Origin: Streptomyces formicae | Lineage (GTDB): Bacteria > Actinomycetota > Actinomycetes > Streptomycetales > Streptomycetaceae | Length of the DNA stretch: 64,000 nt | Direction: 5' to 3' | Assembly (NCBI RefSeq): GCF_002556545.1 | Contig: NZ_CP022685.1 | Span: 8,038,001 to 8,102,000, forward strand | In this document: positions 6,670-16,816 of the stretch, in pieces | Numbering within the stretch: position 1 is the stretch's first letter | Layout of the letters: every line of letters begins with the position of its first letter | The notes under the pieces: generated by a model | Databases searched by the model: none | What the model was told of the DNA's origin: nothing | What the model saw: only the letters and a program-made list of their open reading frames with translations | Translations under genes and position numbers: made by a program

Positions 6670-7518
6670 TCAGCCCTGGGAGGCCGCGGCCCGCAGGGCG
6701 ACGCGGTGCTCGCCCGCGTACACGTTCATGGAGGAGCCGCGCAGGAAGCCGACCAGCGTGAGGCCCGTCTCGGCGGCCAGGTCGACGGCGAGCGAGGACG
6801 GCGCGGAGACCGCGGCGAGCACCGGGATGCCCGCCATCACCGCCTTCTGCGCGAGCTCGAAGGAGGCGCGTCCGGAGACCAGCAGGACCGTCCGGGACAG
6901 CGGGAGCCGCCCCTCCCGCAGCGCGCGGCCGACCAGCTTGTCGACGGCGTTGTGCCGCCCCACGTCCTCCCGCAGGTCGAGCAGCTCGCCCTCTTCGGAG
7001 AAGAGCGCCGCCGCGTGCAGCCCTCCGGTCTTGTCGAAGACGCGCTGGGACGCGCGCAGCCGGTCGGGGAGGCTCGCGAGCAGCTCGACGTCGATCCTGA
7101 CCGGGGGAGTGTCGGAGATCGGGAAGCGCGCCGTGGTGCGCACCGCGTCCAGGCTCGCCTTGCCGCACAGGCCGCAGGACGAGGTGGTGTACACGTTGCG
7201 TTCGAGGGTGATGTCGGGCAGGACGACGCCGGGCGCCGTCCGCACGTCCACCACGTTGTAGGTGTTCGATCCGTCCTCGGTCGCCCCCGCGCAGTAGACG
7301 ATCGACTGCAGCTCCTCGGCGGAGCCGAGCACGCCCTCGCTCACCAGGAAGCCCGCCGCGAGCGCGAAGTCGTCACCCGGCGTGCGCATGGTGATGGCGA
7401 GCGGCTTGCCGTTCAGCCGGATCTCCAGGGGTTCCTCGGCGACCAGGGTGTCGGGGCGCTCCGAGACGTGCCCGTCCCTGATCCGGATCACCTTGCGTCG
7501 CGCCGTGACTCGTCCCAT
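6670..7518 (-). CDS. fdhD: Formate dehydrogenase accessory sulfurtransferase FdhD
   Basis: A 282-residue FdhD. The family passes sulfur from a cysteine desulfurase to the molybdenum cofactor before it enters formate dehydrogenase. The catalytic CGLC motif (Cys115 and Cys118, in TTSSCGLCGKAS) is intact, as are EEPLEIRLNG, RTPGDDFALAAGFL near the start and EDVGRHNAVDKL towards the C-terminus. It is the last gene of the panE-like/fdh operon, 7 bp after the Fe-S subunit gene. Its presence supports calling the upstream molybdoenzyme a formate dehydrogenase rather than another relative. Confidence 0.95.
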   Translation of the reverse strand: MGRVTARRKVIRIRDGHVSERPDTLVAEEPLEIRLNGKPLAITMRTPGDDFALAAGFLVSEGVLGSAEELQSIVYCAGATEDGSNTYNVVDVRTAPGVVLPDITLERNVYTTSSCGLCGKASLDAVRTTARFPISDTPPVRIDVELLASLPDRLRASQRVFDKTGGLHAAALFSEEGELLDLREDVGRHNAVDKLVGRALREGRLPLSRTVLLVSGRASFELAQKAVMAGIPVLAAVSAPSSLAVDLAAETGLTLVGFLRGSSMNVYAGEHRVALRAAASQG

Positions 7519-7525
7519 GTCTTGA

Positions 7526-8386
7526 TCAGTCCCGGTTCTGTACGTGCTGGTAGCCGAAGCGGCCCTTGATGCAGAGGTTGCCGTGGGTCACCGGATTGTC
7601 GTGCGGCGACGTGACCTTCACGATCTCATTGTCCTGCACGTGCAGCGTCAGGTTGCAGCCGACTCCGCAGTAGGCGCACACCGTGGTCGTCTCGGTCTGC
7701 GCGGCTTCGTCCCAGGTGCCGGCGGCCCGCATGTCGAACTCCGACGTGAAGGTGAGGGCACCCGTGGGGCAGACCTCGATGCAGTTGCCGCAGTACACGC
7801 ACGCCGAGTCGGTCAGCGGCGCGTCGTGCTCGACGGCGATGCGGGCGTCGAAGCCGCGGCCCGCCACCGCGATCGCGAAGGTGTTCTGCCACTGCTCGCC
7901 GCAGGCGTCGACGCACTTGTAGCAGAGGATGCACTTGTCGTAGTCCCGTACGTACAGGTCGTTGTCGACCCGGGGCTCCTCGTTCACGCGGGCCGCGTCG
8001 GCGCCGAACCGCTCGGGCTTCGCCTCGTACTCCTTCAGCCAGCCCGCGACCTTCGGCGTCGTCGACATGTCGACGGACGAGGCGAGGAGTTCGAGGACGA
8101 TCCTGCGGCTGTGCCGGGTGCGCTCGGTGTCCGTGCGCACGTCCATGCCGGGCTCCGCCCTGCGGGAACAGGCCGGGGCGAGGGTGCGGGCGCCCGCCAC
8201 CTCCACGACGCAGACCCGGCAGGCGTTCTTCGGGGTGAGGGTGTCGCCCTCGCAGAGGGTGGGCACGTCCTTGCCCGCGGCGCGGCAGGCGTCGAGGATC
8301 GTGGCCCCCTCCGGGACCCTGGCCTCCTGGCCGTCCAGGGTGAACTCCACCAGACGGCGCGGCGGTTGGAGCGGGATCGCGGTCAT
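7526..8386 (-). CDS. Formate dehydrogenase Fe-S chain: detached N-terminal module of the alpha subunit
   Basis: A 286-residue protein equal to the electron-transfer part of a usual NAD-linked FdhA, on its own. In order it has a [2Fe-2S] domain (Cys45, 56, 59, 73), two ferredoxin-type [4Fe-4S] motifs (Cys152/155/158/162 and Cys196/199/202/206), and the molybdopterin-oxidoreductase [4Fe-4S] domain (Cys237, Cys240, Cys244, Cys272 in CAYCGVGCN and GNLCIKGRFGY). It stops at HVQNRD, where the catalytic domain normally follows. That catalytic domain is a separate upstream gene (10382-12304). The ATG at 8386 overlaps the NuoEF-like stop by 4 bp, indicating translational coupling. Confidence 0.88.
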   Translation of the reverse strand: MTAIPLQPPRRLVEFTLDGQEARVPEGATILDACRAAGKDVPTLCEGDTLTPKNACRVCVVEVAGARTLAPACSRRAEPGMDVRTDTERTRHSRRIVLELLASSVDMSTTPKVAGWLKEYEAKPERFGADAARVNEEPRVDNDLYVRDYDKCILCYKCVDACGEQWQNTFAIAVAGRGFDARIAVEHDAPLTDSACVYCGNCIEVCPTGALTFTSEFDMRAAGTWDEAAQTETTTVCAYCGVGCNLTLHVQDNEIVKVTSPHDNPVTHGNLCIKGRFGYQHVQNRD

Positions 8387-16100: not shown

Positions 16101-16111
16101 ACTGTAGACAA
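16101..16111. promoter_or_regulatory. Candidate GntR autoregulatory operator
   Basis: ACTGTAGACAA, the exact reverse complement of the 11-mer at 13416-13426, lies 28 bp before the gntR start. Its core TGTAGACA is an inverted repeat of TGT around two bases. Position and identity suggest autoregulation. Confidence 0.6.
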
Positions 16112-16138
16112 AAGGCAATCGTCGAGGAGGGGACCGCG

Positions 16139-16816
16139 ATGTTGTCCACAGGACTGCCGCAGGGAGCGGTGCCCAGGCTCGAACGCCCCGGGCCGCTCAG
16201 GGAGCGGGTCTACGAGGCGCTGCTCGAACTCATCACGACCCGCTCGCTCCAGCCGGGACAGCACCTCGTCGAGAGCGAACTCGCCGGACACCTGGGCGTC
16301 TCCCGGCAGCCGGTGCGCGAGGCGCTGCAACGCCTCAACACCGAGGGCTGGGTCGATCTGCGCCCCGCCCAGGGCGCCTTCGTGCACGAGCCGACCGAGG
16401 AGGAGGCGGACCAGCTCCTGACGGTCCGTACGCTCCTGGAGGCCGAGGCCGCCCGGCTCGCCGCCGCGAACACCGGCACCGCGGGCATCACCGCGCTCGA
16501 CGAGCTCTGCACCCGGGGCGAACAGGCCGTCGCCGACGGCGACGTGGACCAGGTGGTGACGCTCAACGCGGCCTTCCACGCCAAGGTGATGGAGCTCGCG
16601 GGCAACGTCGTCCTCGCCGAACTCGCCGGGCAGGTGGACCGCAGGGTGCGCTGGTACTACACGCCGGTGGCCCGCCAGCGCGGCAGCCAGTCCTGGATCG
16701 AGCACCGTGAACTGATCGCGGCGATCGCCGAGCGCGACGAACAGCGGGCCACCGCCATCATGCGCGCCCACACGGAGCACACGCGCAAGACGTACCACCA
16801 GCGCGACAAGGGCTGA
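16139..16816 (+). CDS. GntR family transcriptional regulator, FCD subfamily
   Basis: A 225-residue regulator. The winged helix is at residues 18-80 (RERVYEALLELITTRSLQPG and HLGVSRQPVREALQRLNTEG). An all-helical FCD ligand domain follows, with RTLLEAEAARLAA, LNAAFHAKVMELAGN and EHRELIAAIAERD. Metal-binding His/Asp positions of FCD proteins (for example the FHAKVMELAGN and EHRELI blocks) appear present, which suits a carboxylate effector. A strong GAGGAGGG site precedes the ATG. Because its putative operator recurs at the fdh/OFA and oxalate-CoA promoters, it is the best candidate for the regulator of oxalate/formate genes. Confidence 0.92.
   Translation: MLSTGLPQGAVPRLERPGPLRERVYEALLELITTRSLQPGQHLVESELAGHLGVSRQPVREALQRLNTEGWVDLRPAQGAFVHEPTEEEADQLLTVRTLLEAEAARLAAANTGTAGITALDELCTRGEQAVADGDVDQVVTLNAAFHAKVMELAGNVVLAELAGQVDRRVRWYYTPVARQRGSQSWIEHRELIAAIAERDEQRATAIMRAHTEHTRKTYHQRDKG

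Follow-up and report, generated by a model that had tools for sequence, protein, structure and literature searches.

The question raised by this locus is whether two separate groups of genes, linked to oxalate and formate by their predicted products, answer to one regulator through a shared operator. The window analyzed here, that is, the whole stretch of 64,000 nucleotides of the Streptomyces formicae chromosome (NZ_CP022685.1, positions 8,038,001 to 8,102,000; coordinates below are those of the window), carries a left block with formate dehydrogenase (fdh) genes headed by a panE-like reductase gene, an OFA-type carrier gene (OFA1), a fabH-like gene, and a gene for a GntR-type transcription factor with an FCD domain (gntR). 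Its right block holds, on the minus strand, the gene for a thiamine diphosphate (ThDP)-dependent enzyme, frc, an acyl-CoA ligase gene, OFA3, and OFA2, in this order, and, on the plus strand, sucC, sucD, and an aldehyde dehydrogenase gene. We consider it likely that the two blocks constitute one oxalate/formate regulon under the GntR-FCD protein encoded at 16139-16816. The candidate operator sites are as follows, oxc being the gene of the canonical oxalyl-CoA decarboxylase, Oxc:

13411..13430, divergent promoter between panE-fdh and OFA1: distal operator GAATATTGTCTACAGTATGG, genome-unique, conserved, 16/20 to the palindrome of oxc promoters
16096..16114, minus strand: gntR-proximal operator CTTTTGTCTACAGTCTACG, supported by the exact copy, conservation, and the matrix score
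45709..45748, divergent promoter between ThDP-frc and sucC: double operator, two sites with centers 20 bp apart

The window scan placed exact copies of TTGTCTACAGT at 13416-13426 (plus strand) and 16101-16111 (minus strand), the latter ending 28 bp ahead of the gntR ATG at 16139, just where an earlier note made from the sequence had seen them. The 9.61-Mb single-contig genome holds no further exact copy (reversed control, 0). At the frc/sucC promoter, TTGCATACAGT (45714-45724) and an opposite-strand partner form perfect 8-bp arms (CATACAGT...ACTGTATG), so that the perfect palindrome claimed for 45714-45743 holds for the arms but not for the full 30 bp. The pattern ATACAGTN8ACTGTAT, with up to 2 mismatches allowed, matched the genome solely at this promoter (reversed control pattern, 4 hits), and the distal 17-mer AATATTGTCTACAGTAT was single-copy in the genome even at up to 3 mismatches. 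Three of the four exact genomic copies of TTGYMTACAGT lie in the window; the fourth sits ahead of an M16-peptidase-like gene and does not look like a part of the oxalate system. This lone TTGCATACAGT, at 9681-9691 of fetched locus L003, resembles a promoter hexamer rather than an operator. The earlier note had held that a motif spread over many unrelated promoters would undo its proposal; the genome scan found the exact copies virtually confined to the expected promoters. With 1 mismatch, TTGYMTACAGT was rarer than its reversed control (25 versus 53 genome hits), and the 11-mer at 2 mismatches occurred 6 times in the window against 2.68 expected, a modest excess, 6 being reached in 5 of 100 shuffles. 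Because mismatch-tolerant matches lie near or below chance or control, the case rests on the exact copies and on conservation. Scanning of the window with GAATACTGYATRCAGTATTC, the palindrome of oxc promoters, gave hits at 13411 (16/20), 45729 (15/20), 45709 (14/20), and 748 (14/20), with a maximum of 14 and never 15/20 in 60 random 64-kb sequences, and the gntR-proximal site stayed below 14/20. The hit at 748-767 is a weak palindromic match.

Conservation was assessed in the best 80 of at least 381 confirmed Streptomyces loci from a GntR search (82-95% identity; 1,546,446 bases in total) and in a genus sample of 199 Streptomyces genomes (loci fetched and genomes sampled are labeled L and G, respectively). 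Within the 80 loci, T[TC]GTCTACAGT occurred exactly 126 times, upstream of gntR (71), OFA1 (30), fabH (17), and panE (8), with 0 hits for the reversed control and none outside these four promoter classes in the 1,546,446 bases. The element lay at most 330 bp upstream of gntR in 71/80 loci and was found there in 80/80 once variant forms, picked by eye, were counted. The 55 copies before OFA1, fabH, or panE represent a second, distal element, which keeps its place between the divergent genes even when a locus yielded no OFA1 or panE. The fabH-like gene is present in 76/80 gntR loci, directly after the distal operator where OFA1 was not found. Columns of the 11-mer itself are conserved by selection of the rows; in the unselected flanks, the distal rows (n = 64) showed upstream GTCGA at 84-95% per column, AATA at 91-100%, and the next AT at 100%, while the proximal rows (n = 81, one spurious) showed ATTG at 95-99% and CTAC at 84% in the first column and 98-99% thereafter. 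Moreover, AATATTGTCTACAGTAT at up to 1 mismatch was detected in 87/199 genus genomes (control, 0).

The frc promoter is likewise conserved. An orthologue of the ThDP gene occurs in 89/199 genus genomes, and we inspected 46 ThDP-frc promoters from 45 genomes (30 including the window, plus 16 of 15 genomes), chosen by protein rather than by motif. Nearly all of them carry ATTGCATACAGTCGACGAATACTGTATGAA or a close variant; four (L129, L132, L133, and L137) have 3 base differences in the 24-bp dyad, two (L108 and L131) have altered spacing, and the dyad of L128 was located by pattern search. At up to 3 mismatches, the 24-bp dyad was present in 97/199 genus genomes (control, 0).

The two element types are bridged in the promoters of relatives. 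GCATAC[ACG]GTCGA lies upstream of OFA1 in 30/49 OFA1 loci, for example, in the form ATTGCATACCGTCGACGAATTCTGT, which nearly reproduces the frc dyad, and many OFA1 upstream regions hold both kinds of element; a 9-mer count of these regions, blind to frc, also recovered the element, behind the commonest start-codon-proximal words. The fdhA promoter contains GAATACTGTATGCAAT, the union of both frc half-sites, in 6/80 loci, and in genome G198 the dyad (1 mismatch) stands immediately ahead of fdhD. The frc operator of G073 has the TCTACAGTAT core in one of its own arms. Canonical oxc was examined in 12 loci, out of 14 genomes with oxc, and its promoter contained the palindrome GAATACTGYATRCAGTATTC in two of them (G198, arms perfect; G092, one mismatch). 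The G092 oxc and gntR genes diverge from an intergenic region that contains both this palindrome and a proximal-type site. A matrix trained on elements from the left loci of relatives, to which neither frc nor the window contributed sites, scored 29.4 bits at gntR, 28.4 at the distal site, and 24.5 at frc. The null maxima (n = 60) averaged 10.3 and never exceeded 17.1. This matrix is not independent of frc because the OFA1 and fdhA sites had been picked with frc-resembling patterns.

The two blocks are also linked across genomes. A gntR match (E ≤ 1e-70) was present in 87/89 ThDP genomes versus 35/110 genomes without the ThDP gene (Fisher p ~1e-24, phylogeny ignored). Wherever ThDP and gntR share a contig (71 cases), 5-42 kb lie between them, ≤15 kb in 18 cases and ≥24 kb in the other 53; a spacing like that in the window is therefore common. 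In 7/80 loci (Streptomyces violascens, S. cinerochromogenes, S. guryensis, S. barringtoniae, S. alanosinicus, S. achromogenes, and S. flaveolus) frc follows close behind gntR; six of these contiguous loci hold the ThDP gene and the dyad, and the S. violascens locus (L042) carries a ThDP gene fragment. The proposal of one oxalate/formate regulon with a shared operator is thus supported by elements conserved at the expected promoters, intermediates at OFA1, fdhA, fdhD, and oxc of some relatives, contiguity in 7/80 loci, and co-occurrence in 87/89 genomes. The intervening stretch of the window, which the same proposal had described as ~24 kb of sugar and ebo genes, encodes sugar-type functions (a ROK gene, sugar ABC transport, and sugar-metabolism-like genes among ten proteins scanned) but measures ~20 kb (17462-37669).

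Several observations weigh against this reading. Stray elements exist: one copy of GCATAC[ACG]GTCGA within a reading frame in L007 and three copies of a looser 11-mer form in the 80 loci (L019, L026, and L082). The OFA1 promoter lacks the second element in the window as well as in L004 and L005, its closest relatives; the pattern used to gather the OFA1 sites had been shaped by frc. A matrix built from distal and gntR elements only gave frc 9.3 bits versus 7.5 for the best unrelated window site (19932), a marginal score, so the link to frc needs the bridging promoters. No operator was found upstream within the ~1.5-kb flanks of 10/12 canonical oxc loci. The dyad was missing at 3 mismatches from 6/89 ThDP-positive genomes. 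The two ThDP genomes outside the 87/89 both retain perfect dyads, gntR being broken into two pieces in different frames, ~28 kb from the ThDP gene, in G027 and matched only in part (residues 15-159) in G090. Finally, neither Fisher value given in this study accounts for phylogeny.

The genes of the left block, with cut-offs of the respective protein family models, are as follows:

6670..7518, minus strand: fdhD, formate dehydrogenase accessory sulfurtransferase (NF001943, 406 bits; cut-off 269)
7526..8386, minus strand: N-terminal iron-sulfur part of a split formate dehydrogenase alpha subunit (TIGR01591 positions 1-52; NuoG/HoxU-like domains)
8383..10368, minus strand: NuoE-NuoF-like fusion, formate dehydrogenase diaphorase subunit (TIGR01959, 442 bits, and TIGR01958, 54 bits, both below cut-off)
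10382..12304, minus strand: main part of the formate dehydrogenase alpha subunit (TIGR01591, 615 bits, positions 52-672; cut-off 666, set for the unsplit protein)
12324..13310, minus strand: panE/ApbA-like reductase, first gene of the fdh operon (ApbA and ApbA_C domains; NF005089, 458 bits)
13531..14868, plus strand: OFA1, OFA/monocarboxylate carrier of the major facilitator superfamily (MFS) (NF049980, 302 bits, cut-off 320; TIGR00890, 172 bits, cut-off 375)
14837..14971, plus strand: 44-amino-acid (aa) MFS transporter small subunit, overlapping the end of OFA1 (NF047966, 62.7 bits; cut-off 24)
15097..16044, plus strand: fabH-like beta-ketoacyl-ACP synthase III, between OFA1 and gntR (NF006829, 367 bits)
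16139..16816, plus strand: GntR-FCD transcription factor, the proposed regulator (PF00392 and PF07729, both above gathering)

The GntR protein combines a winged helix-turn-helix (HTH) domain (PF00392, 69.0 bits; gathering threshold 27) with an FCD domain (PF07729, 94.7 bits; threshold 24.3), and its best NCBIfam model was PhnR (TIGR03338, 110 bits versus a cut-off of 271.5). The minus-strand genes run from the panE-like gene through the main alpha part, the NuoE-NuoF fusion, and the N-terminal alpha part to fdhD and probably form one operon, since the gaps between them are ≤19 bp or the genes overlap. The divergent promoter earlier assigned to fdh and OFA is shared with OFA1 on one side, while the gene on the other side is the panE-like reductase, with the fdh genes behind it. 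Compared with an NAD-dependent Mo/W formate dehydrogenase, the alpha subunit reaches 615 plus 54 bits of TIGR01591 over two genes (cut-off 666), while the NuoE and NuoF models stay below and FdhD above their cut-offs. This split around the NuoE-NuoF fusion, with the N-terminal piece downstream, recurs in identical order in many relatives.

The right block contains the following genes:

37669..39066, minus strand: OFA2, OFA-like MFS carrier (TIGR00890, 186 bits, below cut-off)
39050..40504, minus strand: OFA3, OFA-like MFS carrier (TIGR00890, 188 bits, below cut-off)
40556..42712, minus strand: nucleoside diphosphate (NDP)-forming acyl-CoA ligase (Pfam ligase domains; NF045493, 560 bits, below cut-off)
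42713..43942, minus strand: frc, formyl-CoA:oxalate CoA-transferase (TIGR03253, 685.8 bits; cut-off 504.2)
43958..45643, minus strand: ThDP-dependent enzyme, proposed divergent oxalyl-CoA decarboxylase (TIGR03254, 244.1 bits; cut-off 739.4)
45809..46933, plus strand: sucC-like succinyl-CoA ligase beta subunit (NF001913, 482 bits; cut-off 370)
46946..47818, plus strand: sucD-like succinyl-CoA ligase alpha subunit (NF004230, 438 bits; cut-off 336)
47862..49421, plus strand: aldehyde dehydrogenase (ALDH families; models shown all below cut-off)

Frc is 56% identical to Escherichia coli Frc. All three carriers are OFA-like, as had been noted before, but none passed the NCBIfam cut-offs for oxalate/formate carriers, including that of the OxlT-type antiporter (TIGR04259, cut-off 335; OFA1, 137 bits; OFA2, 135 bits; OFA3, 166 bits). 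The aldehyde dehydrogenase gene was found in 12 loci among L004-L157.

The ThDP enzyme passed none of the 25 models shown, the best being an acetolactate-synthase-like model (511 bits; cut-off 587) and the 2-hydroxyacyl-CoA lyase (HACL) model NF058623 (369.9 bits; cut-off 600). Its identification as a canonical Oxc was rejected on the TIGR03254 score (244.1 versus 739.4 bits); identity to E. coli Oxc is 27%. Three active-site stretches of E. coli Oxc, GIP, DYEE, and NNGGIYRG, read GGH, LQDL, and NNSSMNQIRY in the ThDP protein. GIP and the aromatic-Glu pair are described for HACL/S (PMC11271303). The nearest solved structure is an actinobacterial 2-hydroxyacyl-CoA lyase, and a HACL structure with Glu493 mutants is described (PMC8760513); the place of this catalytic Glu493, deduced from two mutant chains that differ there, is occupied by Ile in the ThDP protein. 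With this Ile and 369.9 bits in NF058623, assignment to HACL/HICL was not upheld either. A whole-genome search found no other protein over the TIGR03254 cut-off, so that the oxalate route, which the earlier note had called complete, is not complete in the canonical sense.

The two genes are distributed in a complementary way. Canonical Oxc was detected in 14/199 genus genomes, and all 14 carry the dyad. The 97 dyad genomes comprised 81 with the ThDP gene only, 12 with Oxc only, 2 with both (G028 and G111), and 2 with neither (G008 and G152) (Fisher p ~1e-11, phylogeny again ignored; the Oxc genomes may represent few clades). As 12 of the 14 dyad genomes without the ThDP gene hold canonical oxc, the ThDP enzyme is probably a second type of oxalyl-CoA decarboxylase, and the simplest reading is that it performs the job of Oxc. 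On balance, we favor the view that it is a previously unrecognized type, with an active site unlike those of Oxc and HACL/HICL, that assumed this step in the majority of oxalate-competent Streptomyces without change to the promoter, operator, or partner genes, being usually absent where canonical oxc is present (12/14) and drifted in G028, which has two Oxc genes and the most diverged full-length ThDP protein (76%). The ThDP protein of G111, 94% identical beside a canonical Oxc, does not fit such drift. In G008 and G152 (loci L154 and L153), the dyad is kept and neither gene exceeds its threshold; a cut gene is possible there because these assemblies are fragmented.

The proposed mechanism would run as follows. 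A GntR dimer would bind an operator of ~20 bp with the ideal form GAATACTGYATRCAGTATTC. Single copies of this operator would lie in the gntR promoter and in the panE-fdh/OFA1 intergenic region, and the region dividing ThDP-frc-ligase-OFA3-OFA2 from sucCD-aldehyde dehydrogenase would hold two, spaced by 20 bp. Putative regulation by this FCD-type GntR is probably repression: without inducer, GntR would cover the start regions and repress, its own gene included, until an oxalate-derived ligand in the FCD domain released it. The OFA carriers would then import oxalate; Frc, with CoA supplied by the ligases, would make oxalyl-CoA; the ThDP enzyme would decarboxylate it to formyl-CoA, from which Frc would yield formate back; and the formate dehydrogenase would oxidize the formate. 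The PanE-like reductase, a protein that by analogy may be an oxalyl-CoA reductase, might divert some oxalyl-CoA to glyoxylate. Statements on -35 and -10 elements were made by eye only because consensus promoter scans of the three regions reported none of the following promoters. The ThDP-frc promoter could be TGGACA-17-GATAAC (45775 to 45747, minus strand), placing both operator sites over the start region; the sucC promoter could be TTGCAT-17-TATGAA within the dyad; and a TAGACT -10-like hexamer (16098-16103) overlaps the gntR site. Such predicted geometry suits repression and autoregulation, and centers 20 bp apart in the frc operator would put two dimers on one helix face.

Three other explanations deserve consideration. 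The blocks might be under two separate controls, with GntR restricted to sites of the TTGTCTACAGT type (gntR, panE-fdh) and the frc/sucC dyad recognized by a different regulator. This would explain why the resemblance is limited to a TACAGT core within differing cores (TCTACAGT versus CATACAGT), why the strict two-class matrix scores frc marginally, and why G090 and G027, with gntR partial or in two frames, keep a perfect dyad; it is hard to reconcile with the TCTACAGTAT core in the G073 frc operator arm, the many OFA1 upstream regions with both kinds, the oxc promoter of G092 with palindrome and proximal-type site in the intergenic region shared with gntR, the frc type at the fdhA and fdhD promoters of some relatives, and the co-occurrence in 87/89 genomes, and we regard it as quite unlikely. 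Another idea, that the shared 11-mer is a mere -10 element (TACAGT fits TANNNT) matched by coincidence, could accommodate the fourth genomic TTGCATACAGT ahead of the unrelated M16-peptidase-like gene. It is very improbable indeed, considering that tens of genomes conserve 16-30 bp at fixed promoters, the controls yielding no hits, and that no exact copy lies elsewhere in 1.55 Mb; similarity due to chance or to promoter hexamers was rejected on this conservation.

The remaining explanation concerns chemistry rather than control: the cluster might not break down oxalate at all, the ThDP enzyme being a 2-hydroxyacyl-CoA lyase that produces formyl-CoA and an aldehyde, with the aldehyde dehydrogenase oxidizing the latter and Frc and Fdh disposing of the formyl-CoA. 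We find this unlikely, since Frc scores above the oxalate-specific equivalog cut-off and is 56% identical to its E. coli counterpart, the Glu493 place reads Ile with NF058623 at 370 versus a cut-off of 600, and canonical oxc takes the place of the ThDP gene in 12/14 dyad genomes lacking the latter, the aldehyde dehydrogenase being kept in 6/10 such loci fetched. Its merits are the nearest solved structure, the presence of an aldehyde dehydrogenase within the cluster, and a lyase pathway that also induces a formate dehydrogenase (FDH) with alpha, beta, and gamma subunits (PMC7176365).

Compared with known systems, the regulon proposed here resembles the frc-oxc (yfdW-yfdU) operon of E. coli and the Frc/Oxc pair of Oxalobacter formigenes in having Frc beside a ThDP enzyme and carriers. 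It differs from the E. coli operon in the added formate dehydrogenase, CoA ligases, and GntR-type operator, and from E. coli Oxc in the low identity and the missing DYEE and NNGGIYRG stretches given above. Methylorubrum extorquens uses oxalate by means of Frc, Oxc, and PanE2. PanE2 is described as an oxalyl-CoA reductase in two reports (PMC8411744 and PMC12686821). Similarly, a gene of the panE family, recognized at the level of the general PanE/ApbA family, here shares the operator type with frc, but it heads the formate dehydrogenase operon. The 2-hydroxyisobutyrate pathway of Actinomycetospora chiangmaiensis includes FDH subunits alpha, beta, and gamma of 640, 614, and 316 aa (PMC7176365), and these FDH3 sizes are near those of the split FDH here (640, 661, and 286 aa). 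The word "oxalate" is not in the main text of that paper, and the A. chiangmaiensis HACL/HICL is the nearest solved ThDP structure, whose Glu493 place is not kept in our protein. Like regulators of the FadR subfamily of GntR/FCD proteins, the regulator here combines HTH and FCD domains with a site in its own promoter; from PhnR it is set apart by its score below that cut-off. Operators of the GntR/FCD family are short palindromes with an TGNNNACA-like core, a form that the operator proposed here shares. Judging by titles and the beginnings of abstracts, with few subscription papers covered, we found among the papers listed neither this regulon, nor an FCD-GntR regulator of oxalate genes, nor a Streptomyces frc.

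Oxalate is a major soil carbon pool. A genomic survey of oxalate use counted Oxc as a marker, and Streptomyces is absent from its main text (PMC12927642). If the regulon proposed here is real, 87/199 genomes would hold a regulated oxalate pathway without an Oxc over the cut-off, which an Oxc-based survey would miss. It would also provide a defined regulator with its operator, namely an FCD-GntR protein whose ligand can be predicted, and, for one-carbon chemistry, a candidate ThDP/CoA enzyme that differs in its active site. As for variation around the cluster, it has one or two further gntR paralogues (55-60% identity) next to it in three loci with canonical oxc (L148, L155, and L157), and L148 and L157 contain a second frc.

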